From contig NZ_CP108054.1 in assembly GCF_036173125.1 (NCBI RefSeq), positions 2,232,001-2,296,000 of the forward strand: 64,000 bases of DNA, in the 5' to 3' direction. Both the position numbers and the translations under genes were made by a program. The stretch comes from Streptomyces sp. NBC_00286. GTDB lineage: Bacteria; Actinomycetota; Actinomycetes; Streptomycetales; Streptomycetaceae. How positions within the stretch are numbered: the first letter of the stretch is position 1; every line of letters begins with the position of its first letter. Shown here piece after piece: positions 16,936-47,168 of this stretch. The notes under the pieces were generated by a model, which searched no databases, was not told where the DNA came from, and saw only the letters and a list, made by a program, of their open reading frames with translations.

Positions 16936-16983
16936 AGGGCCTGAACGAAGGCCTGACAAAGGGCCTGATGAAGGGCCTTCAGG
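16932..16983 (+). repeat. Short degenerate tandem repeat after the protease stop
   Basis: Four imperfect copies of a unit like AAGGGCCTGA run across the protease stop codon and downstream, with unit lengths of about 13-15 bases. Probably replication slippage; function unknown. Confidence 0.45.
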
Positions 16984-17030
16984 CGAACTGCTGCTGAGCT
17001 TCTGGCAGCTTCAGACCGCCACCCCCCACA

Positions 17031-17064
17031 GGGGCGGCCGACGCGAGCGGGCGTCGGCCGCCCC
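17031..17064 (+). terminator. Terminator of the S8 protease gene
   Basis: GGGGCGGCCGACG (17031-17043) pairs perfectly with CGTCGGCCGCCCC (17052-17064) around an eight-base loop, about 95 bases after the protease stop. Confidence 0.75.
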
Positions 17065-17154
17065 GCCCTTCGTTTCGCAGACGGATACTTTCGGCGGTTG
17101 TTTTCATTCCGACGCCGGTTGGCGGAACGTGCACGTCCGGGACACGATGCCCCC

Positions 17155-17832
17155 ATGAAGGGTGATCTGTTTTCCAGCGAGTACATGGTGCAGCCCGCCA
17201 CCACCGTGGGCATGAGCGTGCAGAACGCCAAGTCGATCCGGTACATGGTCAACGGCGAGATGCTGGCGCGGCAGGGGGCGATGATCGCGTATCGGGGCAA
17301 CCTGCAGTTCGAGCGCAAGGGCCAGGGCGTCGGCGGCATGCTCAAGCGCGCCGTCACCGGGGAGGGGCTGGCGCTCATGGCGGTCCGCGGGCAGGGAGAG
17401 GCCTGGTTCGCGCAGGAGGCACAGAACTGCTTCATCGTCGACATCGACCCCGGCGACGTCTTCACCGTCAACGGCCGCAACGTCCTGTGCTTCGACGCCT
17501 CCCTGCAGTACGAGATCAAGACCGTGAAGGGCGCGGGCATGACCGGCGGCGGCCTCTTCAACAGCGTCTTCACCGGGCAGGGCAGGCTCGGCCTCGTCTG
17601 CGAGGGCAATCCGCTGGTCATCCCGGTCTCGCCGCAGTACCCCGTGTACGTCGACACGGACGCGATCGTCGGCTGGACCGCCAACTTGCAGACCTCGCTG
17701 CACCGTTCGCAGTCCATCGGTTCGATGCTGCGGGGTGGCTCGGGGGAGGCGGTGCAGTTGGTGTTGCAGGGGGAGGGGTACGTGGTGGTACGGCCTAGCG
17801 AGGCGACTCCGCAGAAGCCGCAACAGCACTGA
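17155..17832 (+). CDS. AIM24-family protein
   Basis: A 225-residue protein of the AIM24/DUF124 family (TRAP-like beta-roll). Features: repeated glycine-rich strands (MIAYRGNLQFERKGQG, GLALMAVRGQGEAWFAQEA), the FIVDIDPGDVFTVNGRNVL core, and a C-terminal GEGYVVVRPSE strand. Bacterial members have no settled biochemical role; some are near stress or tellurium-resistance genes. I chose the ATG at 17155 (MKGDLFSSEYMV), since the in-frame extension upstream has no family similarity. It is a single gene, terminated by a perfect hairpin at 17926-17965. Confidence 0.9.
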   Translation: MKGDLFSSEYMVQPATTVGMSVQNAKSIRYMVNGEMLARQGAMIAYRGNLQFERKGQGVGGMLKRAVTGEGLALMAVRGQGEAWFAQEAQNCFIVDIDPGDVFTVNGRNVLCFDASLQYEIKTVKGAGMTGGGLFNSVFTGQGRLGLVCEGNPLVIPVSPQYPVYVDTDAIVGWTANLQTSLHRSQSIGSMLRGGSGEAVQLVLQGEGYVVVRPSEATPQKPQQH

Positions 17833-19050: not shown

Positions 19051-21432
19051 ATGGTCATCCGCGAACTCAGCTATGTGCTCCGCCGTGATCCCAAGACCGG
19101 CGACGACGGGCTCACCCCGGTGTCCACGGCGCCCGACGGCATGCCGGACCACTTGCTGGAACGGGTCGTCATCGCCACGCACGATGCGGGACCTCTCGCG
19201 CGCCCGGCCCTCAGCTACACCCGCCTGCCCCACCGCGACGGCGGCGGGCTGCTGTGCAGCTCCCGGCCGGACGGGAAGGAGGCTGGGCTGCGTATCGACG
19301 TGCTGCACTACGCGGCGGGTGACGATGTCGCCGCCTTGCCGCAGCGACCCGTCGACGCCTGGCGGCCGGCGCTTCCGTACGAGCAGGGCGGCGTACCGTT
19401 CGCGGACGCCGGCGATCCCTGGCACGAGCCGTTGCTGGTGGAGCACGCACGCGAACATGCCCCGCGTGTGGCCCCCTTCCTCGCCGACGTACGCAGGCTC
19501 TTCGCCGACCCCGCTGGGCGGCAGATCGTCGTGGCCGAGGCCGGGCAGGAGACCGTGGCCCGCTGGATCGCCCTGGCGTGCGCCTCGTTGCCCGAGGCGC
19601 ACGCGCGGTCGTTGACCTTCACGACCGCCACCGCCGACCCGGGCCGTGCCCCGCAGCAGATTGTCGGGATCGGCCCGGACACGGACCCGGAGGTCTTCGA
19701 CCGACGCGATGCCCTGACCGTCACTCACCACTACCGGGTCCACGACGGGTTGGGTGGTCCGGGAAGCCCGTCGCTGAGCGATGCCTGGGCCGAGCTGACC
19801 GCATGGCTCTGGCGCGCAGGAGCGCCCCCGCACCCGGGCGACGAACCCTTCGCCCTGCTTCCGCTCGCCCGCCAGGCCCTGGCCATCGGCTCCGGCTCCG
19901 GCTCCGGCTCCTGGGACGAACTCGCCGCCCTCCGTGGCGACGTACTGCCGGAGATCGCGGCCGCCGCCACGGAGGCAGCCGAGCGCGACCAACTGGACGC
20001 CGACGACGAGGAGTTCGTCTCCGAGCTCTGCCGGCGGATCGGCGGAGACCAGCCGGACGCGGTGCAGCGGCTCGCCCTCGCACTGGCCCGGCGGCGTCTG
20101 AAGGCGGCCGGCCCACAGGACACCGATGAGGTGCTGAAGTCCTGCCGCGATCTGCCGCTCGACGAGGCGGCCTGGCAGACGCTGCGCGGCGAGTACGGTC
20201 CGCCGCCCGAGGAGGAGCTGCGCAAGCTGCTGCCGTACTCCTTCGACACCTGGTACAAGCCGCTGCGCGGCCTGCTCGCCTCTGGTGCCGACGCGAGTGC
20301 GGTACCGGACGCGGCCGTGACGAAGCTCGCCGACGCCCTCAGCCACCCCGACAAGAAGCAGAGCTGCGCCGACGCCGTCGATCTGCTCATCTCGCTGCAG
20401 GACCGCGGGCTGGTCCGGCGCGTCCTGGAACGGCTGGTCCAGGACCCCAGCGAGCGTCGTATCCGCGGACTGCGCGAGCTGGCCCGCACCGTGCAGGGCG
20501 CCTGGCTGCGCAGCCACCTCGACGGGGCCCCGCTGACCGTACGCCTCGCCGTGGCGGCAACGGACCTGAGCCACCCTCCGTACGGCATGACGGGCGGCGA
20601 ACTCTGGGTCGAGCTGGCCCGACAGCATCTGAACGGCAAGGTGCCGGACGGCGCCACCCTGCGGACCATGTGGGCCTTGGTCTGGCCGCCGAACGGCCAG
20701 CCGGCCCCCCGCGACCAGAGCAGGGTCACCGAGGTCTGCTCCCCCCGGCTGATCGTCGAGGCGGGGCTGGAAGTCCGCCTCACCCACTGGCTCAAGCATC
20801 CGGACCGGGTCACTCGCGAACTCATCGACTTCGCGCGCGAGACCACTGCTTCACGGAAGTTCAACTCACTGGAACGGGCCGTCGCCCGTCTCTTGGTCCT
20901 CGCCCACGACCTCGCGCAGGGGCGGGAACGCCTGGCCCGAGTCATGGAACAGCTGCCGGCCCTGGAGCAGGCCTCGAGGCCCCTGAACATCGTGCTGCGG
21001 GACGCGGTCGACCAAGGGATCGCCTACGGCATCGCCCGCGCCGACCCCCAGGAGGTGCACGAATCCAACGCGCTGGACTACGTGGCCAACGGCAGCCCGC
21101 AGCTGATCAGCCACTACAAGCGGGCCGTGACCGACGCCCACCGCCCGGGCGGAGCCCTGGACCCGGCTTCGCTGCGTGAACCGCGGCGCGTGGTCACCCT
21201 GTTCGTCGTCTGGAACGAGCGCAGGAAAGGGGCCCGGGGCGGCTGGCGCAACACCACCGACCAGCTGACCGACGACATCATCGGCTCCGCACTGACGCAG
21301 CTGGGCGAGCTCGGCGTCAACGAGGTGGTCAACCTGCTGTCCCAGCGCCCGGGCGGTCAGAAGTGGGTGCAGGCCTGGGCCGACTGGAGGCGTGACCTGA
21401 AGGGCCACGGGGGCGCGCGGGGGCACGGATGA
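19051..21432 (+). CDS. GTPase-associated protein 1 (GAP1-N2)-type protein
   Basis: A 793-residue protein. The first 230 residues match the GAP1-N2 family pattern: IRELSYVLRRDP at the N-terminus, FLADVRRLFADP, VARWIALACASLPEAHARSL, LTFTTATAD and QQIVGIGPD. The rest is alpha-helical, in the size range of the GAP1-M and GAP1-C regions. From memory of the literature, GAP1 proteins were described as partners of double GTPases, vWA proteins and kinases in NTP-dependent conflict systems of multicellular prokaryotes. Here a vWA-PP2C-kinase triad follows 139 bases downstream, but no GTPase. I chose the ATG at 19051 (AGGGG upstream); a GTG eight codons earlier is possible. A GSGSGSGS linker is encoded by a GGCTCC repeat near 19890. 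Confidence 0.8.
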   Translation: MVIRELSYVLRRDPKTGDDGLTPVSTAPDGMPDHLLERVVIATHDAGPLARPALSYTRLPHRDGGGLLCSSRPDGKEAGLRIDVLHYAAGDDVAALPQRPVDAWRPALPYEQGGVPFADAGDPWHEPLLVEHAREHAPRVAPFLADVRRLFADPAGRQIVVAEAGQETVARWIALACASLPEAHARSLTFTTATADPGRAPQQIVGIGPDTDPEVFDRRDALTVTHHYRVHDGLGGPGSPSLSDAWAELTAWLWRAGAPPHPGDEPFALLPLARQALAIGSGSGSGSWDELAALRGDVLPEIAAAATEAAERDQLDADDEEFVSELCRRIGGDQPDAVQRLALALARRRLKAAGPQDTDEVLKSCRDLPLDEAAWQTLRGEYGPPPEEELRKLLPYSFDTWYKPLRGLLASGADASAVPDAAVTKLADALSHPDKKQSCADAVDLLISLQDRGLVRRVLERLVQDPSERRIRGLRELARTVQGAWLRSHLDGAPLTVRLAVAATDLSHPPYGMTGGELWVELARQHLNGKVPDGATLRTMWALVWPPNGQPAPRDQSRVTEVCSPRLIVEAGLEVRLTHWLKHPDRVTRELIDFARETTASRKFNSLERAVARLLVLAHDLAQGRERLARVMEQLPALEQASRPLNIVLRDAVDQGIAYGIARADPQEVHESNALDYVANGSPQLISHYKRAVTDAHRPGGALDPASLREPRRVVTLFVVWNERRKGARGGWRNTTDQLTDDIIGSALTQLGELGVNEVVNLLSQRPGGQKWVQAWADWRRDLKGHGGARGHG

Positions 21433-21571
21433 TCCCAGAAGGCGCTCCGCTTCGCGGGCGAAAGTTCCTCACACCTGATCTTCTGCCTACATCTCAACTA
21501 CGCTTGCCCGCGAAGAGTTTGACGACAACTCCTGGGCGGACACGCGCCCGGTCTCGGGGGAGAGGACCAGC

Positions 21572-22270
21572 GTGAACGACACGTTCGACCTGCCCGGCGG
21601 CAGTATGGCCAGCCGTCCCGTCCATTTCATCTGGCTGCTGGACTGCTCCGGTTCGATGAGCATCAACGGAAAGATCGCCGAGCTGAACTTCGCCATCCGC
21701 GAGGCCATCCCGGAGATGCAGCAGGCCGCCCGCTCCAACCCCGGAGCCACCCTCCTGATCCGGGCCGTTTCCTTCGCCAGCGGCGCCAGTTGGCACATCA
21801 ACGACCCGACCCCGGTCGACCAGTTCACCTGGGAGGACCTGCACACCTACGGCGGCACCGACATGGGCGCCGCGTTCCGGCTCGCGGCCGGCGCGCTGCA
21901 GACGCCGCCCATGCCGCAGCGCGCCCTGCCGCCGGTGCTGGCCCTCGTCTCCGACGGCCAGCCGACCGACGACTGGCGCTCCGGGCTGCGCGCCATCGAC
22001 GACACGCCCTGGGGCAAGCGTGCGGTGCGGGTGGCCCTCGCCATCGGTGACGACGCCGACAAGAGCATGCTCAAGGAGTTCCTGGCCAACCCGGAGCTGG
22101 AACCGCTGCATGCCAAGAACCCGCGCCAGCTCGCCGCGGCGATCCGCTGGATGTCCACGGCGGTGAAGCAGGCCTCCACCCCCAGGGCCGACGGTGACGG
22201 GGCCGGTCCCATGCAGGCCCCGCCGCCCGTGGCGCTGGGCAAGGACGAGGACGAAGACCCCGTCTGGTGA
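21572..22270 (+). CDS. TerY-like vWA-domain protein
   Basis: A 232-residue von Willebrand A domain protein with a complete metal-ion-dependent adhesion site: LLDCSGSM (DxSxS), GGTDMG (Thr) and SDGQPTDD (Asp). It has no signal peptide, as in the cytoplasmic TerY family. In tellurium-resistance-related loci, TerY proteins occur with a PP2C phosphatase and a kinase carrying a C-terminal zinc finger (the TerY-P triad); the next two genes are exactly these. The GTG start at 21572 follows GGGGAGAGG. Its stop overlaps the next start as GTGA, so translation is coupled. Confidence 0.9.
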   Translation: MNDTFDLPGGSMASRPVHFIWLLDCSGSMSINGKIAELNFAIREAIPEMQQAARSNPGATLLIRAVSFASGASWHINDPTPVDQFTWEDLHTYGGTDMGAAFRLAAGALQTPPMPQRALPPVLALVSDGQPTDDWRSGLRAIDDTPWGKRAVRVALAIGDDADKSMLKEFLANPELEPLHAKNPRQLAAAIRWMSTAVKQASTPRADGDGAGPMQAPPPVALGKDEDEDPVW

Positions 22271-23253
22271 ACGGCGGTGTGACACCGCCCGGGCGCTGGG
22301 AACTGCTCGAGGGCGCAGTGAAGGGCGCCGGCAAGAAGTACAGCCAGGACCGCTGCGCCGCACTGCACATCGCCGGCGGAGAGGCCGTCGTCCTCGCCGT
22401 GGCCGACGGGCATGGTTCGGCGCCGCACTTCCGCAGTGACCTGGGTGCGCGCTGGGCGGTCGACGAATTCGTCGCGTGCGCACGGAAGTTCGCGACGACG
22501 GCGGTGGAGGTCGACGCCGAGGCCAGGAAGAACGGTGACGAGGGCCACTGGTATGCCGGGTTGGCCGAACTGCACGCCCAGGCGCGGCGGTTGCCCGAGC
22601 ATGTGGCCCACCGGTGGTACGGGCGGGCGACGCTGCACGACTGCAACTCCCCCGCCCACGGCGGCCTGCCCGTCACTCCCTCCGCGCAGAACCCGAAGGG
22701 CTCCGACTCCGGGCTGCACCCGAAGGGCCCGGAGGCCACGCAGCATCCGAAGGGCCCTGACCTCACCGCGTACGGCGCCACGCTCGTCGGCGCCGTCCTC
22801 ACCCGACGGCTGCTGGTGTGCTGGCAGTTGGGCGACGGTGATGTCGTAGTCCTCGACGCGGTCGGCACCCCGTACACCCCCCTGTACACCGGTCCCGACC
22901 TCGGCGACGAGACGGACTCCCTGTGCGCCGCCGAGTCCTGGCACCGTGCGCGCTGCCACTGGCAGCCCCTCACCAACGAGAGTCCGTCGGGCCTCCTGCT
23001 CTCCACCGACGGACTGTCCAAGAGCTTCACCGACCACCAGGGCTTCCTCGACTTCGCTGCCGGAGTGCAGGGCCGCGCGACCGAACTGGGGATGCCCGCC
23101 GTACGGACCCGGCTGCCGGACTGGCTCGGACGGGCCGCCCAGTACTCCGGGGACGACACGACACTCGTGGGCGCGTTCGAGGCCACCGACGCTTTCGCGC
23201 CCCAGCAGAACGACGCGCCAGATGTGAGCCACGAGAGGAACCGCGCATGGTGA
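22267..23253 (+). CDS. PP2C-family Ser/Thr phosphatase (TerY-P triad)
   Basis: A 328-residue PP2C. Metal and catalytic motifs are present: SQDRCAA, LAVADGHGSA (DGHG), LLLSTDGLSKS and GDDTTLVGA (GDDxT). The start GTG (22267) overlaps the vWA stop by four bases. Between the conserved core segments there is an extra loop at about residues 140-166 made of three 9-residue repeats (NPKGSDSGL, HPKGPEATQ, HPKGPD), encoded by a 27-base tandem repeat. It presumably reverses phosphorylation by the following kinase, possibly on the vWA or GAP1 protein (inference). Confidence 0.9.
   Translation: MNGGVTPPGRWELLEGAVKGAGKKYSQDRCAALHIAGGEAVVLAVADGHGSAPHFRSDLGARWAVDEFVACARKFATTAVEVDAEARKNGDEGHWYAGLAELHAQARRLPEHVAHRWYGRATLHDCNSPAHGGLPVTPSAQNPKGSDSGLHPKGPEATQHPKGPDLTAYGATLVGAVLTRRLLVCWQLGDGDVVVLDAVGTPYTPLYTGPDLGDETDSLCAAESWHRARCHWQPLTNESPSGLLLSTDGLSKSFTDHQGFLDFAAGVQGRATELGMPAVRTRLPDWLGRAAQYSGDDTTLVGAFEATDAFAPQQNDAPDVSHERNRAW
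22690..22761 (+). repeat. 27-base tandem repeat inside the PP2C gene
   Basis: Two complete units and a partial third, starting at 22690, 22717 and 22744, each with a (A/C)A(C/T)CCGAAGGG core. They encode the (N/H)PKG(S/P) loop repeats and keep the reading frame. Confidence 0.75.
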
Positions 23254-24599
23254 ACGGCATGCTCGCCGCCGGGCAGACCCTGGTGACCGAGGAGGGAGAG
23301 AAGGTCAAGGTCGCCGAGATGTTCGGCTCCGGCGGCCAGGGCGAGGTCTACCGGGTGAAGACCCGCAAGGGCGACCGCGCCGTCAAGTGGTACTACCCCC
23401 AGCTCGCCGACGGCCGCCAGCGGCAGATCCTCGAAGGGCTCATCGGGCGCGGCTGGGGCGACGACCGCTTCCTGTGGCCGCAGACCATCGTCGTCGACGC
23501 CGACGGCAAGCGGCCCGGCTTCGGGTACCTCATGGACGTACGCCCCGCCCGCTTCCACGACCTGCCCGCGCTGTTCCGCCGCGACCCCGCGCTCGCCGCC
23601 ACCACCACGCGCACCCTCGTCATGGCCGCCCTGCACACGGTCGAGGCGTACCGCGCCCTGCACGCCAAGGGCATCGCCTACCGCGACATCAACTGGGGCA
23701 ACATCTTCTTCGACCCGCACACCGGTGACGTCCTCGTGTGCGACAACGACAACGCGGTCGTCGAGGGCGAGAGTACGGGCGTCGCGGGCACGATGGACTT
23801 CATGGCGCCGGAACTCGTGCGCGGCGACCAGGGCGCCCAGCCCGGCATCCAGAGCGACCTCCACTCCCTGGCCGTCCTGCTCTTCCTGCTGCTGATGAAC
23901 CATCACCCGCTCGAGGGCGCACTGGCGTTGCAGATCCGCTGCCTGGACGAGGCGGCCCGGCGCAAGCTGTACGGGACCGATCCGGTCTTCATCTACGACC
24001 CGTCCGACGCACGCAACCGGCCGGTGCCCGAGGAGCAGCAGACCGTCGTCGCCACCTGGGGTGCCCTTCCGCCCGTACTGCGCGGACTGTTCGAGCAGAC
24101 CTTCACCGACGGGCTGAAGAAGCCCTCGCTGCGGGTGCGCGAAGGGCAGTGGCGGGACGCCCTCAGCGAGGCCCTCGACACGATCTGCCTCTGTGCGGGC
24201 TGCGGCCGACAGAACCTGACCGAACCGGACGGGCCCGCGCCCGCCTGCTGGAGCTGCGGGCGCACCGTGAGTCTGCCTCCGCGTCTGCGTCTGACCACGG
24301 GCACGGCGACCTCGCGCAGCCGGCCCCGGTCGATCCGGCTCGGCGCTCAGGCTCGTATGTACGCGCACCATCTGGACGTCGACCCGGAACGGCACGACTT
24401 CACCGCCGTGGTCGCCGAGGTGACCGAACACCCCAAGCAGCGGGGGCGGTTCGGGATCACCAACCGCACCGGGCGCCGTTGGACGGCCCGACGGGCGGAC
24501 GGGTCCGTCCATGACGTCGATCCGGGCAAGACGATCGGCTTGAGTACCGGGCTGCAGTTGGAGTTCGGTGGCGGGGCGGAAGCGGTGGTTCAGGACTGA
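23247..24599 (+). CDS. Ser/Thr protein kinase with C-terminal zinc ribbon (TerY-P triad)
   Basis: A 450-residue kinase. N-lobe: GSGGQGEVY (glycine loop) and DRAVKWY (catalytic Lys). C-lobe: AYRDINWGN (catalytic Asp and Asn, with Tyr replacing the His of HRD), CDNDNA in the place of DFG, and GTMDFMAPEL (activation end/APE). After the kinase domain there is a CxxC...CxxC zinc ribbon (CAGCGRQNL, CWSCG) and a C-terminal beta-rich domain of about 90 residues ending GLSTGLQLEFGG. The ATG at 23247 has GAGAGGA upstream and overlaps the PP2C end by seven bases. The domain layout is that of TerY-P triad kinases. Confidence 0.9.
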   Translation: MVNGMLAAGQTLVTEEGEKVKVAEMFGSGGQGEVYRVKTRKGDRAVKWYYPQLADGRQRQILEGLIGRGWGDDRFLWPQTIVVDADGKRPGFGYLMDVRPARFHDLPALFRRDPALAATTTRTLVMAALHTVEAYRALHAKGIAYRDINWGNIFFDPHTGDVLVCDNDNAVVEGESTGVAGTMDFMAPELVRGDQGAQPGIQSDLHSLAVLLFLLLMNHHPLEGALALQIRCLDEAARRKLYGTDPVFIYDPSDARNRPVPEEQQTVVATWGALPPVLRGLFEQTFTDGLKKPSLRVREGQWRDALSEALDTICLCAGCGRQNLTEPDGPAPACWSCGRTVSLPPRLRLTTGTATSRSRPRSIRLGAQARMYAHHLDVDPERHDFTAVVAEVTEHPKQRGRFGITNRTGRRWTARRADGSVHDVDPGKTIGLSTGLQLEFGGGAEAVVQD

Positions 24600-24862
24600 G
24601 GGGGCCTGGCACTGTGTGCGTGCGGTCGGGCGGGTGGTCTGGTGCCGGGCATCGCGAGGCGCCGGAAGGGTCCTCGTAGCGGAGCTACTGGGCCCTTCGG
24701 CGACGCGGCGAGGTGCGGTGCTAGGCCGCGCTGCGAGATGCGGTGCCGGGGGCGCGCGGTGAGGTGCGCTGCCAGGCCGCGTGACCCGGGCAGGCATAGT
24801 GCAAGGGCCCGTGGTCCCGCGGGCTGCAGGGCCCCTGAGGTCCCGCGGGCCGCTCAGGCCTC
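24600..24862. other. 263-bp convergent intergenic region
   Basis: It lies between the kinase stop and the end of the leftward fibronectin-like gene. It has loosely repeated GGCGAGGTGCGGTGCTAGGC-like segments (about 24706-24780) and a CCCGCGGGC block repeated twice. No clear simple terminator was seen and no gene. Confidence 0.4.
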
Positions 24863-27800
24863 TCACCTGCGCAACGGCCACCAGCGGCGCCAACGTGTCC
24901 GCCAGCCATGCGGCGAGGGAGATCGGGCCGGCCAGGCCGGAAGGAACAGACGCGGCGGCGCCGGGACCTCGGGAAGGTCCACGACCGCCGCGTCCGCCGG
25001 AACGGCGAGCGCGTCGGGGCGCGGGAGGGCCGCGACCGTGACCCGGTACGCGTCCCGTGTGACCCCGAACGACACCTGCTGGTCGGCGAGATAGCGGCTG
25101 CGGGCCACCCGGCGCTCCTCGCGACGCCCGCCACCCTCCCACGTGACGACCACCAGCACGGCGGGCTCCGGCCATTCGAACCGCACGGTGGCGCGATCAG
25201 GCGTGACGCGATGAACCGTCAAGTCCCTGACCTGTCCCGGGTGTTCAACCACCACGTCCGGTCCGGTCACCTTGCGCTCCCCCAGCATGCTCACCGACGT
25301 CATCCGCAGCCGCGCCCGCTCGGGCACGGCGACCTCGACGGACGGCTCAGCGCCCGCGGGCGCCTCCGGAACGGTGAGCCCCGCCCGCGCCGACACATCC
25401 GTACCCGGCCCCACGGGAACGCTCCGCCAGGGCAGCACCGTACTCAGCCCCCGCTCGGGCGGCCGCCAGGTCAACGCCACCCGCCCTCCGTCTCCGACAA
25501 ACCGCGCCGCCAGATCCTCCACCTGCCCCGGCCACTCCTCCGCCCGAGCCCCCACCCGCACACCGGGAGACCACACCGTCTGCCCACCGGGCCCCGGATA
25601 ACCACAGCGAACCTCGTACGTGTACTCCCCCGGATCAAGCGGCACATCCAACACCCCGTCCCGCCCACACGCCACAGACACGGCAGGTCCGCCGACGGCA
25701 CGCCGCTGCACCGACAATTCGCTACAGCTCGCATCCGGCCGCCCCCACCGCAGCCGCACCCCCTCCGGCACCAGCGTGACGGCCACCCCGCCCACATCGG
25801 GCGCGATGACAATGGGCGCCCCCACCAACGGCACACCGGCAATCACCCCTCGCCGCACGGGGACGACGGCATACCGCAGGGGCCGCCCCACGGGTGCATC
25901 GACGTCCGTACGACTCAGAACCCGGCCCTCCGCGCCGACACCACCTGCGCTGTCCGTATCAGTGCCGACAAGGCCATCCGCGCGCTCCGGCGTGACCGCA
26001 CCCGCCGTGCCGGCCGCGTCCATCACAACCGCCGCACGTACTCCGCCGGTTGGCCCCGCCGCATCCTCCGGCCCCGCACCACCCTCCGTCCCGGCTGCGT
26101 CCATCCCATCCGATCCACCAGCCGCGTTCAGCGCACCCGCCGTGCCGGCCGCGTCCATCACAACCGCCGTACATTCTCCGCCGGTTGGCCCCGCCGCATC
26201 TTCCGGCTCCACCCCGCCGGGATGGGCCGCACCCGCGCCCACATGGCCATCCACGCGCTCCGGCGTGACCGCACCCGCCGTGCCGGTGGCGTCCGCCGCA
26301 GCCGCCGCGCGCTCTCCGCCGGTTGGCCCCGCCGCATCTTCCGGCTCTGCGCCACCGGGATGGGCCGCACCCGCCGTGCCGGGTGCCACGCCCGGCGCAT
26401 CCGATGAGCCAGGCGCGTTCAGCGCGCCCGCCGGGACGGCCGCATCCACCGCAACCGCCGCACGTTCTCCGCCGGTTGGCCCCGCCGCATCTTCCGGCTC
26501 TGCGCCACCGGGATGGGCCGCACCCGCCGTGCCGGGTGCCACGCCCGGCGCATCCGATGAGCCAGGCGCGTTCAGCGCGCCCGCCGGGACGGCCGCATCC
26601 ACCGCAACCGCCGCACGTTCTCCGCCGGTTGGCCCCGCCGCATCTTCCGGCTCTGCGCCACCGGGATGGGCCGCACCCGCCGTGCCGGGTGCCACGCCCG
26701 GAGCATCCGATGAGCCAGGCGCGTTCAGCGCGCCCGCCGGGACGGCCGCATCCACCGCAACCGCCGCGCGCTCTCCGCCAGGCGCCCCCACCGCATCTTC
26801 CGGCCCCGCACCGCCAGGCCGGGCCGCGTCCGCCGACGCGGTCGCCCCGCCCGCCTGCCCCGACCCCGTCGAACCGTTCGCGCTCAACTCCGTCGCATCA
26901 CCCGGTGCCCCATCCGGAAAGCGCAACACCCGGTATGTCACCCCACCCGCCCGCGACCGGGCCGCTGGCCAAGTCAGAGTCACCGTCCGGGCGTCGAGCG
27001 TCACTTCCAGGTGGGCGCTCGTGGCCGTCGGGCCCGCGGCCGCTGCGGCGGACAGGAGTTCCGCCTCGATGGCCGGGTCGTCGGCGGCGCGGCGGGCGGC
27101 GCGGAGCCAGGCGGGGGCTGCGGCTCGGGCGGAGCCGGTCGCCGACAGGCGGGTTGCCTCGGCCGTTAGGTGGGCCACCTCGGTGGCGCGGGCGTGCAGG
27201 GACTGCAGGAGTTGGGTGAGGGCGGGGTCTCGGCCGGTGTCGTGCACCTGCGTGACCAGCCGCTCGGTTTCGCGTAGGCGGCCGCCCGGCCAGATGTCGC
27301 CCAGCCGCTCGGCGGCCGCACGGGCGGTTCCGGCGGCGGGGAAAGCGGCGGCGACGGCCGACGCGAGGGGTCGCGCCTCGTCGCGGTGGACGCCGAGTGC
27401 GACGGCCGCCTCCTCGGTGGGCCCGTCGGCGCCGTCCCGCAGCAGACAGCCCAGTTGCCACAGCAGCAGCCGGCGCAGCCCCATCGGCTCGTGCCGGACG
27501 TACGCCACCAGCGTGTCCACGATGCCCGCCGCCCCGGCGGCCCGCGTATCGCCGGAGGCCAGCCAGTCGGTACGTACCTTCTGGACGTAGTCCAAGTCCA
27601 CCCGCTGCCACAGATTGCCCCGGCCGGTGAACCACAAGCCGTCCAGGACGCGGAAGCCGCGGTCCGTCTCGGCCTGCGGCAGCGAGCCGAACGACGCGTG
27701 CCGGGCCGCCGTCGGCGGCCGCAGCACGTCCGCCACATGCAGGAAGCCCAACGCGTCGAGGCCCTCGCGCAGCCGGCCGTAGCCGCGCATCGCGGGCAGG

Positions 27801-27937
27801 CACGGCAGATCCGGCAGAGGCGGACGTGGCGCCCCGTCGTCCGATGACACCCGCTCGCCGGGACGCCACTGCCGCTGTGCCACTCCGTACGGTCCTTTCC
27901 CTCGTCGTGCTCCGGCCGCCGCGGGACCGGAGGTCAC
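24863..27937 (-). CDS. Fibronectin-like multidomain protein with internal repeat array
   Basis: A 1024-residue protein without recognisable enzyme motifs. Residues 1-300 are mostly helical and contain LWQRVDLDYVQKVRTDW and RHEPMGLRRLLLWQLG. From about 305 a fibronectin-III-like domain begins (LEVTLDARTVTLTWPA, YRVLRFPDG) and is interrupted at about residue 347 by some 330 residues of Ala/Gly/Pro-rich repeats. It then resumes with DAPVGRPLRYAVVPVRRG. Several more beta-sandwich modules follow (VRLRWGRPDA, RVALTWRPPE, VRFEWPEPAV). The start GTG (27937) overlaps the preceding stop as GTGA. It is last in a three-gene coupled operon. Probably a large binding or scaffold protein of the neighbouring GAP1/TerY-P system (inference). 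Confidence 0.75.
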   Translation of the reverse strand: MTSGPAAAGARRGKGPYGVAQRQWRPGERVSSDDGAPRPPLPDLPCLPAMRGYGRLREGLDALGFLHVADVLRPPTAARHASFGSLPQAETDRGFRVLDGLWFTGRGNLWQRVDLDYVQKVRTDWLASGDTRAAGAAGIVDTLVAYVRHEPMGLRRLLLWQLGCLLRDGADGPTEEAAVALGVHRDEARPLASAVAAAFPAAGTARAAAERLGDIWPGGRLRETERLVTQVHDTGRDPALTQLLQSLHARATEVAHLTAEATRLSATGSARAAAPAWLRAARRAADDPAIEAELLSAAAAAGPTATSAHLEVTLDARTVTLTWPAARSRAGGVTYRVLRFPDGAPGDATELSANGSTGSGQAGGATASADAARPGGAGPEDAVGAPGGERAAVAVDAAVPAGALNAPGSSDAPGVAPGTAGAAHPGGAEPEDAAGPTGGERAAVAVDAAVPAGALNAPGSSDAPGVAPGTAGAAHPGGAEPEDAAGPTGGERAAVAVDAAVPAGALNAPGSSDAPGVAPGTAGAAHPGGAEPEDAAGPTGGERAAAAADATGTAGAVTPERVDGHVGAGAAHPGGVEPEDAAGPTGGECTAVVMDAAGTAGALNAAGGSDGMDAAGTEGGAGPEDAAGPTGGVRAAVVMDAAGTAGAVTPERADGLVGTDTDSAGGVGAEGRVLSRTDVDAPVGRPLRYAVVPVRRGVIAGVPLVGAPIVIAPDVGGVAVTLVPEGVRLRWGRPDASCSELSVQRRAVGGPAVSVACGRDGVLDVPLDPGEYTYEVRCGYPGPGGQTVWSPGVRVGARAEEWPGQVEDLAARFVGDGGRVALTWRPPERGLSTVLPWRSVPVGPGTDVSARAGLTVPEAPAGAEPSVEVAVPERARLRMTSVSMLGERKVTGPDVVVEHPGQVRDLTVHRVTPDRATVRFEWPEPAVLVVVTWEGGGRREERRVARSRYLADQQVSFGVTRDAYRVTVAALPRPDALAVPADAAVVDLPEVPAPPRLFLPAWPARSPSPHGWRTRWRRWWPLRR
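25915..26860 (-). repeat. Coding minisatellite: six units, three nearly identical 153-bp copies
   Basis: The central part (about 26314-26773) is three almost perfect copies of a 153-base unit, visible from the recurrence of GGTTGGCCCCGCCGC at 26321, 26474 and 26627. Each unit encodes 51 residues ending EPEDAAGPTGG. Three shorter, diverged copies lie at lower coordinates (toward the protein C-terminus) and a partial one at the other side. Every unit length keeps the frame. Confidence 0.85.
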
Positions 27938-28431
27938 TCGCCCGGCCGGGTGAAGAAGTACACGCGAACCACCGCGCTCTGCGGTGCCTCACTCAGATCG
28001 TGGAAGTCGTCCGTCGCCGTCCGGCCGCCGAACATCTCCGGCCGGGCCTTGGCGAGCAGCCCGTTCACCCGGTGCGCGTACGCCGTACCACCCTGGCTGC
28101 CGCCGAACGTCAGCACCATGGCCGCGGTACGCCCGCGCCATTTCTCCGTGCCCGACCGGATCTGCCGCAGCAGCGCGTCGGTGTCATCGCCCTTCACCCG
28201 GAACTGCTCCGGTTCCCGCGACACCCCCTGCGGCCCAGTCGGCGAGGGGCTCGGGGACGGACTGGGGGAGCCGGAAGGGCTGCGGGTGGGTTTGGGCTTG
28301 TCGTTGGCCTTCGGGTCCGGTCGGTCGGCCATCGACACCAGCGCCAGTACGAGCAGCAGGTCGGCGAAGAGCCACCCCGCCAGCACGACGACGCTGAGCC
28401 CGCGCGTACGACGCCGGGGGCGAGCGCTCAC
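27934..28431 (-). CDS. Single-TM protein with MotB/ZorB-like helix
   Basis: A 165-residue protein: basic N-terminus (RPRRRTR), one membrane helix (LSVVVLAGWLFADLLLVLAL) that carries an Asp at about residue 24, a Pro/Ser-rich linker (about 38-70) and a C-terminal alpha/beta domain (AMVLTFGGSQGG, AYAHRVNGLLAKA, VVRVYFFTRPG). The W..AD pattern in the helix is what MotB, TolR and ZorB stator subunits show at their proton-path Asp. The C-terminal domain could be a distant OmpA-like module. This is pattern similarity, not a firm family match. Start GTG at 28431 overlaps the previous stop by four bases. Confidence 0.65.
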   Translation of the reverse strand: MSARPRRRTRGLSVVVLAGWLFADLLLVLALVSMADRPDPKANDKPKPTRSPSGSPSPSPSPSPTGPQGVSREPEQFRVKGDDTDALLRQIRSGTEKWRGRTAAMVLTFGGSQGGTAYAHRVNGLLAKARPEMFGGRTATDDFHDLSEAPQSAVVRVYFFTRPGE

Positions 28432-29681
28432 GTCTCACCGCCGTCCGCACCGTTCGAGGGCGCCGGTACGCGAGCGCCGTTGACCTGCCCCGGCGGGAGC
28501 TGTCCGCCGGACAGGACACGGATGCCGTGGTCGAGTCGCGCCGCGGCGTCCTGCCAGTGGGCGGCCGCCGCGTCCCAGCGTTCGGTCGCCTCGCGCATGC
28601 CGTCGACGGCGTCGTTGGTGCGGCCCGCGCCCGCCGCGACGGCCTGCGCGGCCCGCTCGGCGGACTGCGCCACCGCGTCGGACTTCGCCGCGAGCGCCTG
28701 CTGGGCGGTGATCAGCGAGGTGACCGCCGTCTGCATGGCGTCCCCGGCGGCCTGCACCCGGTCCGCGACCGTACGCGCCGCGTCCTTGCTGTCCTGCCGC
28801 ACCTGGTCCGAGGCGGACATGCTCGCCTTGACCGCCGCCTCCACCCGGTCGGCCGCCTTGGCGATGCCGGGTACCTCGGACGACAGCGCTCCGGCCGCCT
28901 TCTGCAGAGCGTCGGTGGCGTCGCCGACCGCCGTGGCGCTGGCCACCAGCTTCTGATGGCTGCCGTCCGCCTGCTTGAGCAGGTTCTGCAACTGCCGTGC
29001 CGTACGGGTGAGTTCCTTCGTGAACTGATCCGGAGACGCGGCCCGATGCGGCGTCAGGCACATCTGCACCCGGGTCAGCAGGGCGGCAAGCGCCCCCAGG
29101 AGCCGCTCGTCCCCGGCCTCCCGGTCCTGCTCCTTCCGCTCCGTCTGTGCCCTGACATAGGCGTGCGCCACCGACAGCAGGACCAGCCCTGTGATCAGTA
29201 CGACGGCCATGAGCGCCACGTTCTCGAAGCGGCCCATCGCCGACAGATGCCCGCCGAAGCCGGTCTGCCACAGCTGGAGAAAGGGACGGGTCGCCTGATC
29301 GCGGTCCTCCGCGGCCAACTCCCCGTAGGCACGCACCGCTTCCCGCAGCCCGAACCAGGTGACCAGCAACGGGATGAACACCAGCACGCCGAGCGCGGCC
29401 TCCAGCAGGCCATGCCCCGGTATCCAACGCCGCCAAGGCTGGGCGGGGGCCGCGGGCGGCGGGGCCGTAACGCTTTCGGGGCGTACGTAGGAATGGACGA
29501 GGTCGATCTCGGCCCATCGGTCGAGCCGGTTGCCGTGGGTCAAGTCATCGGCGAGAGCGGCCAGTTCGGCCTTGCGTACGGCAAGCTGGGAGGAGTGCTC
29601 GTTGAGGAGCTCCTCCAACTCCTTGCCCAGGACCTTGCGGTCCAGGAACGACGATCCGGGGGACGGGGATGCGGTGGGCAA
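28428..29681 (-). CDS. Two-TM membrane protein with long coiled coil
   Basis: A 417-residue protein. Membrane helices at about 91-110 (GLLEAALGVLVFIPLLVTWF) and 153-174 (ENVALMAVVLITGLVLLSVA) are followed by a long cytoplasmic-looking Ala/Gln-rich coiled coil (about 200-385), resembling methyl-accepting chemotaxis or ZorA-type tails. It has no signalling-tip hairpin motif of true chemoreceptors. The TTG start at 29681 is supported by CAGGAGA eight bases upstream. It is first in the leftward operon and coupled to the single-TM gene. Together the two could form a stator-like membrane complex (inference). Confidence 0.65.
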   Translation of the reverse strand: MPTASPSPGSSFLDRKVLGKELEELLNEHSSQLAVRKAELAALADDLTHGNRLDRWAEIDLVHSYVRPESVTAPPPAAPAQPWRRWIPGHGLLEAALGVLVFIPLLVTWFGLREAVRAYGELAAEDRDQATRPFLQLWQTGFGGHLSAMGRFENVALMAVVLITGLVLLSVAHAYVRAQTERKEQDREAGDERLLGALAALLTRVQMCLTPHRAASPDQFTKELTRTARQLQNLLKQADGSHQKLVASATAVGDATDALQKAAGALSSEVPGIAKAADRVEAAVKASMSASDQVRQDSKDAARTVADRVQAAGDAMQTAVTSLITAQQALAAKSDAVAQSAERAAQAVAAGAGRTNDAVDGMREATERWDAAAAHWQDAAARLDHGIRVLSGGQLPPGQVNGARVPAPSNGADGGET

Positions 29682-29989: not shown

Positions 29990-30003
29990 TCAGGTCCAGG
30001 ACG
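29938..30003 (+). repeat. 20-base tandem repeat, three units
   Basis: ACGGATGGTTCAGGTCCAGG at 29941, 29961 and 29981 (one substitution in the last), with partial units at both ends. The last unit contains the stop codon of the HATPase gene, so the array shapes its C-terminus. Confidence 0.85.
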
Positions 30004-30565
30004 GATCGGCCGCATGGGCGTCGGCCGATCCGTCCCGGGGCTCCGGTACCGCCGATGACATGGCCGCCTCAGCCGCGCACGTCGCCTCCGTCATGTCCGC
30101 GGCGTCCGCCGCCTCCGTCGCGTCCGTCGGAAGCTCGGCCCATACGATCCTGCCGGCCCCCTGCGGCGCGTCCCGTACCCCCCAGTCGCTGCTCAGCATG
30201 CCCACGAGCAGAAGCCCGCGACCACCTTGATCGTCGGGCTTCGGCTGTCTGCGGGCGGGGAGCGTTCGGCTGCGATTCTGGTCCTCGACCTCGAGATGGA
30301 GCAGGTCGGCGGCGGTGCGGAGTCTGCACACGATCAGGTCGCTCTCCGTGTGCGTGAGCGCGTTGGTGACGAGCTCGGAGGTCACCAGTTCGGCGTTGTC
30401 GCAGGTCTCGCGGCTGATGCCCCATTCGCTCAGCAGCTCCCGCACGCTTCTGCGGGCCGCGGCCACCGAAACGGGGACGGCAGGCAGGCCGAACACGCCT
30501 GCTTTGTGGAGGAGTTCGTCACCGGAAAGTCGGCCCAAGGACTGAGGGAAGGAGGGCGAGACCAT
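29990..30565 (-). CDS. HATPase-domain regulator, RsbW/AbaA-cluster type (module 1)
   Basis: A 191-residue GHKL ATPase of the anti-sigma-factor type: N-box ELVTSELVTNALTH, VEDQN (G1-like) and GGRGLLLVGML (G2). In Streptomyces such genes are often next to an XRE-DUF5753 gene and a DUF397 gene; both follow here divergently. These trios (abaA/whiJ-like) affect development or antibiotic production in some species. I chose the ATG at 30565 (GAAAGG upstream); an ATG 33 bases earlier is possible. The acidic, Ala/Thr-rich tail beyond residue 150 is unusual and its last residues come from the 20-base repeat. Confidence 0.88.
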   Translation of the reverse strand: MVSPSFPQSLGRLSGDELLHKAGVFGLPAVPVSVAAARRSVRELLSEWGISRETCDNAELVTSELVTNALTHTESDLIVCRLRTAADLLHLEVEDQNRSRTLPARRQPKPDDQGGRGLLLVGMLSSDWGVRDAPQGAGRIVWAELPTDATEAADAADMTEATCAAEAAMSSAVPEPRDGSADAHAADPSWT

Positions 30566-30804
30566 CGCCGTACGCCTTTCGTCTGCAGAGCACAACACTC
30601 CGAGTCGCGGCCTTGATCCCCCAACTGGGCCGCATAGCCCCTTCGTTCACCGTCCGGGCCGTACCACCACTCTGACACCTGCCGACTACGTCTCGCAACC
30701 AGCAAGTTGAAAATTGCATTTTGTAGGGCACAGACCGCCCCGGTCGCCGATGATCGTGACAGACTGCGATGCATTGGCCCGGACTGCGGGTGAGGAGGTA
30801 GGGC

Positions 30805-31680
30805 GTGACCTCGGAAACCGACTGGGGCGGCGCGCCTTCCGTCCTGCGCATGATCCTGGGCAAGCAGCTCGAGGAACTGCGCAACCGGGCCGGTCTTACG
30901 TACGAGCAGGCGGCCATGGCGATCGGGGTGAGCCACTCCACCATCCGCCGGATGGAGTCCGCCAAGGTGGCGCGGCTCAGGCTCGCGGACGCCGAGAAGC
31001 TGCTCCAGATCTACGGCGTCAAGGACCAGCAGGAGATCGACACCTTCCTGAAGTCGGTCCGCGAGGCCAACAAGCGCGGCTGGTGGCATACCTACCGTGA
31101 CGTACTGCCCGACTGGTTCGCCGCGTATCTGAGCCTGGAACAGGCGGCGTTGCAGATCCGGGCGTACGAGGCGCAGTTCGTGCACGGACTACTGCAGACC
31201 GAGGCGTACGCGCGTGCCCTGCTCGGCGCGGGCAATCCGCACGCTTCGGAGGAGGCTACCGAGCGCCGGGTGGCACTCCGTATGCAGCGCCAGGAACTGC
31301 TGTCCCGTCCGAACCCTCCCCGCGTGTGGATCGTGATGGACGAGACGGTGCTGAGGTGGCCGGTCGGCGGACCCGAGGTGATGCGCGCCCAGGTCGACCA
31401 CCTGATCACGCTGAATGCGCTGCCCCATGTGACCGTACAGATCATGCCGTTCAGCAGCGGCCCGCATCCGGCGATGCGGGCCGGCGCCTTCCATCTCTTC
31501 CGGTTCAGGGCCAGGGAGTTGCCCGACATCGTGTATCTCAGCGGCCTGGTGGGCGCTGTGTATCTCGACAAGGCCGACGACGTCCTGGTCTATCGCGAGG
31601 CCCTGGACCGGCTGGGCGCCCAGTCGACGCCCGCCAGCAGGACCGAGGCTCTCCTCGGTGCGATACGCAAGGAGCTCTGA
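30805..31680 (+). CDS. XRE-family regulator with DUF5753 (module 1)
   Basis: A 291-residue WhiJ/Scr1-like regulator. The N-terminal helix-turn-helix is at about residues 18-70 (LGKQLEELRNRAGLTYEQAA, GVSHSTIRRMES). The DUF5753 sensor-like domain follows (YLSLEQAALQIRAYE, FVHGLLQTEAYARALL, PHVTVQIMPFSSG, VYLSGLVGAVYLD). The GTG start at 30805 follows GGAGG. It is divergent from the HATPase gene and one base upstream of the DUF397 gene, so the three form one module. Confidence 0.92.
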   Translation: MTSETDWGGAPSVLRMILGKQLEELRNRAGLTYEQAAMAIGVSHSTIRRMESAKVARLRLADAEKLLQIYGVKDQQEIDTFLKSVREANKRGWWHTYRDVLPDWFAAYLSLEQAALQIRAYEAQFVHGLLQTEAYARALLGAGNPHASEEATERRVALRMQRQELLSRPNPPRVWIVMDETVLRWPVGGPEVMRAQVDHLITLNALPHVTVQIMPFSSGPHPAMRAGAFHLFRFRARELPDIVYLSGLVGAVYLDKADDVLVYREALDRLGAQSTPASRTEALLGAIRKEL

Positions 31681-41825: not shown

Positions 41826-41873
41826 CCCCCGGTGTCAGGATATGGCTCCCCCGAGCCCCCTCGTAGGAGCCCC

Positions 41874-46214: not shown

Positions 46215-46945
46215 CGCATGGGCACTTGCCGGAGGGGGTCGCGGCGTTGGTGGGGGGCGAGGCGATCGCTACGGCGCGGGTGGACGCGCTGCTGAGAGCA
46301 ATACCTCCGCGCGACGAGGTGCCCGGTCCGGATGCAGCGAACGGCGCAGACAAAGTCCGGTGCGACACAGAGCCCCATCAGGGGCGCGGGGAACCGCGCG
46401 ACCAGCCACAGGCGGCCCGCAGGTCTCAAACCGCCCTCGCCGAGCGGCAGCGCCGCCGCTGGGCCACCCAAGTCGTCGTAGCCGACGAACTAGCCCACCG
46501 CGCCTGCGCCGAGCGCGGACTCACTCCCCCCGCCCGGGCGGAGCCCCACACGCTCGCCGTAGACGAAGCCGACGTCGCCGACCTCGGCAGCATCGTCGCA
46601 GTCGTACTCGCCTACTCCCCCGCCGCCCGCACCCTCCTGGCCCACCTCACAGACGAGCAGAACCTCCCCGAAGCAGCCGTACGTGACTACTACGACCGCA
46701 ACCGGGACCGCTTCCTCACCCAGGACGCCCTACGGCGAGGAGTCGACCCCTTCAGCGGCGCGGCCCCGGCCGACTTCCTCCCGTACACGGACGTACGGGA
46801 CGGCATCGCCCACGGGTTGCGCCAGGCGGCCGGCCGCCGCGCCTTCTTCGCCTGGCTGGACCGGGCCCGCGCCGATGTCGTCTACGCCGTCGGCCACGAA
46901 CACCCCGGCGACCCATCACACCCGGACCACGAGCACCGCCACTGA
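46211..46945 (+). CDS. SurA/parvulin-N-like protein with an in-frame dispersed repeat
   Basis: A 244-residue protein of uncertain function. GGEAIATARVDALLRAIP is a start typical of actinobacterial peptidyl-prolyl-isomerase-like proteins, and EAAVRDYYDRNRDRFLTQD is the SurA/PpiC N-domain pattern; no isomerase domain follows. Residues about 48-65 (DTEPHQGRGEPRDQPQAAR) are not family sequence but a translated copy of the intergenic repeat, inserted in frame. The protein ends with a His-rich tail (HPDHEHRH). Start GTG at 46211 overlaps the mannosidase stop, so it is made with the mannosidase. Confidence 0.7.
   Translation: MTHGHLPEGVAALVGGEAIATARVDALLRAIPPRDEVPGPDAANGADKVRCDTEPHQGRGEPRDQPQAARRSQTALAERQRRRWATQVVVADELAHRACAERGLTPPARAEPHTLAVDEADVADLGSIVAVVLAYSPAARTLLAHLTDEQNLPEAAVRDYYDRNRDRFLTQDALRRGVDPFSGAAPADFLPYTDVRDGIAHGLRQAAGRRAFFAWLDRARADVVYAVGHEHPGDPSHPDHEHRH
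46357..46425 (+). repeat. Dispersed Streptomyces repeat, copy 6, inside a coding region
   Basis: AGGGGCGCGGGGAACCGCGC followed by GACCAGCCAC, the same core as copies 1 and 2, but here in the reading frame of the gene at 46211-46945. The frame stays open across it. Confidence 0.75.
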
Positions 46946-47106
46946 GAGGCACTGACGGGCACCGCCCGGCACTTGCCACCAACCTACGCCCGACACCCGC
47001 CCGCCACCCACCCCTCCCCGACCCGACCCGGAACCCAAAAGCAACACAGCAGCCCATTGACCTCCGATGAATTCTGGTCCACATTTTCATCAATCGGAGT
47101 CCAAGT

Positions 47107-47123
47107 TGGTGAATTGAACCAGC
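47107..47123. promoter_or_regulatory. TTGAACCA motif before the ABC importer operon
   Basis: TGGTGAATTGAACCAGC; TGGTG-AATTG-AACCA matches the inverted half-site layout of the mannosidase site. It lies 46 bases before the binding-protein start. Confidence 0.65.
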
Positions 47124-47168
47124 AAACCCCGGCACATCCCCAGATACCTGTTCGCAGGAGGGCATCCC

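Follow-up and report, generated by a model that had tools for sequence, protein, structure and literature searches.

A GTPase-free GAP1 and kinase-triad locus of Streptomyces linked to an undescribed membrane pair

The window analysed here is a 64,000-nucleotide stretch of the soil bacterium Streptomyces sp. NBC_00286 (contig NZ_CP108054.1). All seven genes that an earlier note on this DNA had described were found where it had placed them, in two convergent operons, confirming that observation. The positions below are those of the window.

19051..21432, + strand: GAP1 gene; M and C domains plainly matched in Pfam, N2 domain diverged
21572..22270, + strand: vWA gene; stand-alone vWA domain with MIDAS motif
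22267..23253, + strand: PP2C phosphatase gene; Pfam PP2C_2, metal-binding motifs
23247..24599, + strand: Ser/Thr kinase gene; Pfam Pkinase, C-terminal zinc-ribbon motif
24863..27937, - strand: FN gene, encoding an FNIII-type protein; recognised by family profile and relatives
25964..26804 (about), no strand assigned: tandem repeat within the FN gene; 153-bp unit, in-frame
27934..28431, - strand: TM1 gene, encoding a one-TM protein with an invariant GWLFAD anchor
28428..29681, - strand: TM2 gene, encoding a two-TM, coiled-coil protein of no known family

Six of the seven genes stood out by codon composition. The FN gene did not, because its composition is odd, and its reading frame was confirmed by relatives. 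For GAP1, a GTG at 19027 is a possible upstream start; several relatives begin at the position of the ATG at 19051. Neighbouring genes overlap by 4 bases (vWA/PP2C, TM2/TM1 and TM1/FN) or by 7 bases (PP2C/kinase). The TM2/TM1 overlap was kept in 51 of 56 loci, and the translation of TM2, TM1 and FN is coupled.

GAP1 stands for GTPase-associated protein 1, a name taken from its GTPase. The earlier note had called the block's protein GAP1-N2-type. We observed clear Pfam matches to GAP1-C (E 3.6e-59) and GAP1-M (E 4.1e-20), but no match to the GAP1-N2 domain at E 0.1. GAP1s of the block type form a single clade (support 100/100), in which GAP1-M was found in 14 of 14 members, GAP1-C in 13 of 14 and GAP1-N2 in 2 of 14 (E 0.01 cut-off; best 9.2e-4). 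All nine other GAP1s, five from GTPase-bearing loci and four others, matched GAP1-N2. The N domain of the block's clade has diverged almost past Pfam recognition.

The three genes downstream of GAP1 form the set that the earlier note had named a TerY-P triad. The vWA protein has a weak Pfam VWA match, below the curated cut-off, and an intact MIDAS motif (DCSGS, GGTD, SDGQPTD). The phosphatase matched PP2C_2 (E 5.8e-27) and carries the metal-binding motifs DGHG, TDG and DDT, and the kinase matched Pkinase (E 1.6e-15), with RDxxxxN and DND motifs and the C-terminal CxxC...CxxC motif of the zinc-ribbon kinase that had been proposed. These motifs were conserved in 22 of 22 kinases (one of them from G081), in 19 of 20 phosphatases and in 19 of 20 vWA proteins. 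A MIDAS-bearing vWA protein, a PP2C and a kinase thus lie side by side, so that the composition given for the triad holds, although the PADLOC TerY model matched the block only weakly (E 0.048 over 48 residues). A closer description of the set is the third theme of the GAP1-N2 systems of Kaur et al. 2020, in which a zinc-ribbon kinase, a PP2C and a stand-alone vWA are adjacent; the kinase and the PP2C of the block are predicted to be active from their motifs. Kinases of the block type and kinases of GTPase-bearing loci fall into a single clade.

The FN protein has an N-terminal helical-looking domain followed by divergent fibronectin-III-like domains, and we saw no TM helix or signal in it. 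On its own it gave no Pfam match, and Pfam fn3 was found in just 1 of 18 family members, at E 0.05. The best matches of the family profile were fibronectin-III structures (E 0.0076), in agreement with its earlier description as fibronectin-like. It also matched the FN genes of canonical GTPase-bearing loci and belongs to one family with their FNIII protein; it corresponds to the rapidly evolving FNIII-repeat component of GAP1-N2 systems. The protein had also been described as a hypervariable-looking giant. It is giant in this strain because of a 51-residue (153-bp) tandem repeat in about five copies, up to 95% alike; complete relatives have 682-830 residues, leaving aside a 420-residue row (L067) that looks like a frame break and two loci cut at contig ends (L068 and L072).

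TM1 consists of one TM helix, the invariant GWLFAD anchor holding Asp24, and an outer beta-alpha-beta-alpha-beta-beta domain that is possibly OmpA-like. TM2 has an N-terminal helical domain, two TM helices with a conserved RPFLQLWQxGFxGHL motif between them, and a long coiled-coil tail. Both had been described in these terms, as a two-TM coiled-coil protein and a single-TM protein with a membrane Asp, and Asp24 was present in 44 of 44 TM1 sequences. Domain profile searches assigned neither protein to a known family, and we regard the two as an undescribed membrane pair. PADLOC and NCBIfam matches of TM2 to ZorA were confined to the coiled-coil tail.

To the extent that the pair had been called stator-like, the likeness was found in TM1 and not in TM2. 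The TM1 profile aligned with ExbD/TolR at 59% over 24 columns; the median TM1 score against ExbD/TolR exceeded all 65 single-TM controls, with the lowest TM1 rows below the best controls, and against MotB no similarity exceeded controls. In its N-terminal single TM helix and conserved Asp, TM1 resembles an ion-motor B subunit. TM2 had no Pfam MotA_ExbB match, and its hhalign probability stayed below 1%, at no more than 0.5%, for MotA and for ExbB/TolQ.

Of the 65 loci fetched with TM2, 20 showed the seven-gene order again, which places the arrangement above chance; they belong to Streptomyces, Wenjunlia, Actinacidiphila, Actinomadura and Catenulispora. In a GAP1-led search of 345 genomes, eight genomes exceeded 500 bits (the next scored 311); these highest-scoring, full-length relatives all had the convergent FN-TM1-TM2 operon and no GTPase. 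None of 12 other GAP1 loci examined had TM1/TM2, and four of these were GTPase-bearing kinase loci. Among FN-bearing loci of the TM2 scan, 20 of 23 had both operons, and two of the remaining three end at contig edges. The earlier note had proposed that the convergent operons form one system and had set their co-occurrence as its test. They do co-occur, which supports one system, with four exceptions: L089 and L194 carry TM2-TM1-FN by itself, and in G081 and G571 a block-type GAP1 is present and the membrane pair was not found. That the locus is a decaying canonical GAP1-N2 system, its GTPases lost and its N2 domain diverged, next to an unrelated membrane operon that can stand alone (L089, L194), is very improbable because the same unit was seen at 20 of the 65 loci and with eight of eight full-length GAP1 relatives, and because the motifs of kinase, PP2C and vWA are retained.

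TM2/TM1 also occurs in a sister arrangement, found in 38 of the 65 loci, where it stands first in a five-gene operon that contains a separate vWA-PP2C-kinase set (all five genes were seen in 35). This set was tied to TM2/TM1 in 9 of 23 TM1-positive genomes, and its kinases are shorter, with the zinc-ribbon motif in 0 of 36. Eleven of the 20 related loci had an HSP70 gene upstream of TM2; another, HSP70-TPR gene was called in eight and GrpE in seven. In the window, the ORFs around the locus fall in none of these clusters. Flanking genes in the window are mostly unlike those at other loci. Within the block, GAP1 and FN evolve fast, vWA and kinase slowly, and the conservation of TM2 and TM1 is on a par with that of FN and PP2C.

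We found no GTPase next to the block. A profile built from three canonical loci recovered six of six held-out canonical loci and gave no hit in the 65 scan loci or in 11 further loci of the block type, the window included. DO-GTPase2 was absent from the block's own genome and from 13 of 19 genomes with a block-type GAP1; all five canonical genomes had at least two. Among 12 GAP1-plus-triad loci collected from the GAP1 side, eight had the pair and no GTPase and four had GTPases and no pair, so that GTPases and membrane pair were mutually exclusive in the loci examined. A neighbouring GTPase was likewise missing at all 16 of the remaining non-canonical GAP1 loci, which have neither pair nor triad; taken alone, a GTPase-less GAP1 neighbourhood is not unique to the block. 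The absence of a GTPase had not been mentioned in the earlier note, whose interpretation is partly supported overall: operon linkage and triad composition stand, and the stator likeness stands by half.

Judged from sequence, the block most likely encodes a membrane complex that is gated by phosphorylation and belongs to a conflict or envelope-stress system of the GAP1 type. Our leading, still tentative, reading is that it encodes one GAP1-N2-derived complex in which TM2 and TM1 stand in place of the canonical double GTPases under phosphorylation control. By analogy with other ion-driven pairs, several TM2 molecules would surround a TM1 dimer; TM1 would be anchored outside to the cell wall and bear the ion-coupling Asp, and the cytoplasmic tail of TM2 would contact FN and GAP1. 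The phosphorylation state that keeps the complex off or allows opening may be set by kinase and PP2C, the vWA protein may assemble the parts, and FN/GAP1 may detect an invader or damage to the envelope. Opening or energising the pair could then shift the membrane potential or exert a pull on the envelope. The pair is the likeliest output, since domain profile searches of the seven proteins recognised neither a nuclease or protease nor any other toxin domain.

The same lack of a toxin domain would suit a machine with no part in defence that serves envelope-stress or developmental signalling in spore-forming actinomycetes: what TM1 senses at the cell wall would be turned by the triad into a phospho-signal, and FN/GAP1 with HSP70 would remodel a protein complex. 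The HSP70 and GrpE genes at related loci, the possibly OmpA-like domain of TM1 and the lack of any TM2 match in 72,556 plasmid and 50,697 phage records are consistent with such a role. We consider it possible but unlikely, as block-type GAP1 is patchy (8 of 345 genomes); patchiness, differing flanks and fast-evolving GAP1 and FN beside slow vWA and kinase are easier to reconcile with an arms race than with a housekeeping role. A true ZorAB-like ion-driven motor, with a TM2 pentamer around a TM1 dimer and proton flow turning the TM2 tail against FN/GAP1, is doubtful. The plan agrees (a one-TM partner with invariant Asp and outer domain, a long-tailed A-type partner, coupled genes), the TM1 anchor is ExbD/TolR-like, and the ion channel of flagellar stators consists of two A-subunit helices and the B helix, as described in PMC12505986; TM2 itself, however, resembles neither MotA nor ExbB/TolQ, and its ZorA likeness is limited to the tail. 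We are similarly doubtful that TM2/TM1 is a pore-forming effector of the GAP1 system, in the role that two-TM SLATT proteins have elsewhere. SLATT effectors, in many cases fused to GAP1, are among those reported for GAP1-N2 systems (PMC7159879), and no alternative effector candidate was recognised in the block, but TM2 had no Pfam SLATT match, the pair occurs in GAP1-free settings (the 38 sister loci), and swappable effectors would not be conserved like FN and PP2C.

For the preferred GTPase-replacement reading, a clade in which GAP1, the FNIII protein and the kinase triad are retained, with a membrane pair at the GTPases' place, suggests that the switch of suspected immune systems is exchangeable, and makes the pair a testable candidate substitute. 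A protein family of more than 600 members, with no informative annotation among 120 listed, gains partners. More speculatively, and improbably as a whole, TM2/TM1 could be a new minimal family of ion-conducting actinomycete membrane pairs (three TM helices), a shared engine or gate for at least three controllers: the vWA-PP2C-kinase triad, the GAP1/FNIII system that has no GTPase and may or may not include HSP70/GrpE, and an SrfB-like protein together with a dynamin-like GTPase. In the GAP1 system, the switch would then be phosphorylation-controlled proton flux in place of GTP hydrolysis. Both the seven-gene block and its five-gene sister operon are compact enough for cloning into laboratory Streptomyces.

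The combination of GAP1, FNIII protein, zinc-ribbon kinase, PP2C and vWA is already published, as the third theme of actinobacterial GAP1-N2 DO-GTPase systems (Kaur et al. 2020 eLife, PMC7159879). The block shares all of these components, with GAP1-M and GAP1-C; it differs in its absent DO-GTPase, its diverged GAP1 N domain and the convergent operon in which FN is joined to an undescribed, translationally coupled membrane pair. Like the TerY-P triad of vWA, PP2C and kinase (PMC11090510, citing Anantharaman 2012 and Gao 2020), it has the same three adjacent protein kinds, its kinase with a C-terminal zinc ribbon, but embedded in a GAP1 block and weakly matched by the TerY model. With ZorAB, MotAB, ExbBD and TolQR it shares a two-gene membrane pair, an invariant Asp near the helix start of the one-TM partner and a long-tailed second partner; it differs in that TM2 spans the membrane with two helices and shows no detectable MotA/ExbB/TolQ relation, and no ZorC, ZorD or ZorE was recognised among the seven proteins. 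In contrast to the second theme of Kaur et al. (HSP70/GrpE), the locus in the window has no HSP70, GrpE or GTPase. The themes are described as non-overlapping in PMC7159879; the 11 of 20 relatives that add second-theme HSP70 to the kinase set break this separation within single loci.

Two convergent operons occupy positions 19051-29681 of the window, in a source genome of 9.85 Mb on one contig, of which the window covers 2232001-2296000. Domain searches identified the four genes of the first operon:

Forward strand: GAP1, with matches to GAP1-M and GAP1-C
Forward strand: vWA, with a weak vWA match
Forward strand: PP2C, with a match to PP2C_2
Forward strand: kinase, with a protein kinase match

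Facing these on the reverse strand are TM2 (a two-TM coiled-coil protein), TM1 (a one-TM protein with an invariant Asp24) and FN (an FNIII-type protein), for which domain searches gave no convincing match. We found that fibronectin-III structures were the top match of the FN family profile (E 0.0076), and Pfam fn3 was recognised in 1 of 18 family members, at E 0.05. The length of FN in the window is explained by a 153-bp in-frame tandem repeat; the near-identical copies lie inside the gene at 25964-26804, possibly a length-variable (VNTR) region in this strain. By mean pairwise identity across 11 loci per protein (10 for FN), vWA (0.80) and the kinase (0.75) are slow-evolving and FN (0.54) and GAP1 (0.42) fast; the values for PP2C, TM1 and TM2 were 0.65, 0.64 and 0.55.

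The sections of Kaur et al. 2020 (PMC7159879) used here define GAP1 by its partnership with double GTPases (DO-GTPases), class DO-GTPase systems by the GAP1 N domain, assign an FNIII protein to N2-type systems and describe a third, actinobacterial theme of zinc-ribbon kinase, PP2C and stand-alone vWA. Because GAP1, the FNIII protein and the third-theme parts are published there, five of the seven block genes belong to a described set. Five canonical, GTPase-bearing loci from the same genus (L053, L054, L056, L061 and L062) run in the order FN, GTPase, GAP1, GTPase with TM helices, vWA, PP2C, kinase, and for L053 Pfam confirmed both GTPase genes as DO-GTPase2.

Membership in the GAP1-N2 DO-GTPase family was rejected because a GTPase was sought at the seven-gene locus of the window and none was found. 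A profile made from the GTPases of three canonical loci recovered all six held-out canonical loci; it matched none of the 65 loci from a TM2 profile scan of the species-genome collection (best E 0.054) and none of 11 further loci of the seven-gene kind, which include the window and some TM2-scan loci fetched again. The window's own genome, which has a single GAP1-C match, gave no match in a DO-GTPase2 search. Of the 19 genomes that carry a GAP1 of this kind, DO-GTPase2 had no match in 13, a sub-threshold match in 1 and one or two matches above the cut-off, elsewhere in the genome, in 5; all five canonical genomes had at least two. Nor did the profile find a neighbouring GTPase at any of 16 further GAP1 loci that have no membrane pair (TM2 and TM1) and do not belong to the canonical kinase theme; orphan GAP1 is therefore common. 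The block is distinctive in having a GAP1 that retains the FNIII protein and the triad (vWA, PP2C and kinase) but not the GTPases. The seven-gene block is a derived variant of the GAP1-N2 DO-GTPase system, and it probably works in a like manner.

GAP1 genes with no double GTPase, no FNIII protein and no clear triad beside them were seen at L051, L052, L055, L057-L060, L174, L176-L181 and L183; L052, L055 and L057-L059 have flanking gene clusters in common and therefore look like an orphan GAP1 whose position on the chromosome is fixed.

The 14 GAP1 proteins of this group form a single clade (support 100/100). GAP1-M was recognised in all 14, GAP1-C in 13 and GAP1-N2 in 2 (best E 9.2e-4), and other GAP1 proteins carried GAP1-N2 in 9 of 9 cases (5 encoded at GTPase-bearing loci, 4 at other loci). 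N-domain divergence alongside GTPase loss fits the coupling of GTPase type and N-domain type reported in the same sections of PMC7159879. Against this coupling, the orphan GAP1s of L051, L052 and L060 retain GAP1-N2 without a neighbouring GTPase. A GADYSGR-type N-domain motif was present in 5/5 canonical GAP1s, 0/14 of this group and 0/8 GAP1s of other loci; its absence from these last makes it a marker of the canonical theme only.

We observed the parts, order, linkage and conserved motifs of the block across genomes. In the TM2 scan, 20 of the 65 loci were seven-gene convergent (with GAP1 in 18 and a contig edge ending the remaining two) and 38 were TM2-TM1-vWA-PP2C-kinase (all five genes present in 35; contig edges cut L104 and L123 short, and L125 is without TM1 and vWA). 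Three were TM2-TM1-FN only, two of them at contig ends, and four were TM2 only by the queries used: L064, which is cut, and L126-L128, where a large protein accompanies a divergent TM1. A GAP1-led search of 345 genomes of the family gave a match in 63, 8 above 500 bits and the next at 311. All eight, which include the window's own genome and four whose loci match TM2-scan loci by contig, had the convergent FN-TM1-TM2 operon. Twelve of the other 55 were examined and had TM1/TM2 in none, canonical GTPase-bearing kinase loci in four and GAP1 only in eight. The 12 GAP1-plus-triad loci from this search thus comprised 8 with the membrane pair, 4 with GTPases, none with both and none with neither. 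A TM1-led search of 200 genomes of the family gave a match in 23: six seven-gene, nine five-gene, two TM2-TM1-FN, two with SrfB/dynamin-like genes and four weak or unassigned. Taken together, these searches indicate that this GAP1 clade is nearly always found with the membrane operon, and that the membrane operon can occur without GAP1. Two loci where TM2-TM1-FN had neither triad nor GAP1 in the fetched flanks (G338/L089, 9923-15048; G350/L194, 4452-8759) suggest that the membrane operon has a reduced or different use there. Genome G571 had a GAP1 frame matching the N and M parts only, the rest of the block not being found in 19.9 kb; G081 had the GAP1-triad half, TM1 and TM2 not being found in an assembly of ~700 contigs, broken on both sides.

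Genes flanking the block in the window fall into clusters of one to five members. Neighbouring features were the following, of which the first three listed are not conserved with the block:

29990-30598, reverse strand: anti-sigma-type HATPase gene by the TM2 end
30805-31680, forward strand: DUF5753/HTH_31 regulator by the TM2 end
15133-17832, forward strand: subtilase with P-domain and AIM24-family gene, on the upstream side of GAP1
41832-53757: genes of glycoside hydrolase families 38 and 3 alongside sugar ABC transporter components, resembling an ordinary cluster for carbohydrate use

TM2 and TM1 show translational coupling, with a 4-base stop/start overlap in 51 of 56 loci; three of the five exceptions (L067, L116 and L121) reflect ORF calling. 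TM1 has one N-terminal helix and a GWLFAD motif invariant in 44/44. Over 24 columns, the Asp among them, its profile aligned with the ExbD/TolR anchor at 59% probability. Single TM1 sequences scored a median of 24.1 against ExbD/TolR, compared with a maximum of 22.95 for 65 single-TM controls from the same loci; the lowest TM1 rows fall below that maximum, and the rows, being interrelated, count as one observation, not 42. MotB gave no comparable signal. The outer domain of TM1 is predicted as E-H-E-H-E-E (pLDDT about 97), and its best structural matches (OmpA-like domains, the SiiA peptidoglycan domain, CagT and chorismate mutases) all lie within the noise range. TM2 is predicted to combine a helical domain at the N terminus with two membrane helices and a long tail; a strong family motif lies between the membrane helices, and the protein had no detectable relation to MotA, ExbB or TolQ. 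TM1 has 629 relatives among 5.8 billion proteins, and the 120 listed had no Pfam domain and no informative name.

The membrane pair is also used outside the block. The five-gene operon TM2-TM1-vWA-PP2C-kinase without GAP1 (L044, L045, L046 and the 38 TM2-scan loci, for example L087:9971-14867) is apparently a minimal membrane-pair-plus-TerY-P system, its kinases having GDxxxxNI and DCD motifs in 35/36 and the zinc-ribbon motif in 0/36. In the kinase tree, a 100/100 branch parts 22 GTPase-free and 5 canonical kinases from the 36 of five-gene operons, and the canonical kinases are nested among the GTPase-free ones; the triad of the block is thus shared with the GTPase systems, whereas its membrane pair is that of the five-gene operon. 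A third setting (L126, L127, L128, L195 and L196) has TM2, a divergent TM1, a dynamin-like GTPase and a large protein of ~1170-1450 aa that in L126 matches SrfB below threshold. The dynamin-like gene was present in two of L126-L128 and not seen in L126; that of L128 matched Dynamin_N (E 2.2e-7) and LeoA (PADLOC, E 7.7e-7).

The favoured reading is that TM2 and TM1 assemble as an ion-coupled membrane complex. The kinase and PP2C would gate it, vWA may act as assembler, and FN and GAP1 may be sensors. Because no toxin domain was recognised in any of the seven proteins, the membrane pair could itself be sensor, output or both. We hold this reading of the whole block tentatively, at slightly short of an even chance; the main rival for its role is envelope stress instead of defence.

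The block is a real, conserved variant of a known predicted conflict system, apparently undescribed within the literature searched, with a membrane pair that is itself undescribed. Some seven-gene loci carry more genes than the window, where HSP70/GrpE genes were not found: HSP70 lies upstream of TM2 in 11/20 (for example L076:25-9919), a second HSP70-TPR gene was called in 8 and GrpE in 7. A large repeat-looking protein of up to about 1680 aa occurs in 11/20, with no Pfam match in the one scanned. HSP70/GrpE is a feature of the second theme, and whereas the sections of PMC7159879 used here call the second and third themes non-overlapping, these loci combine the two.
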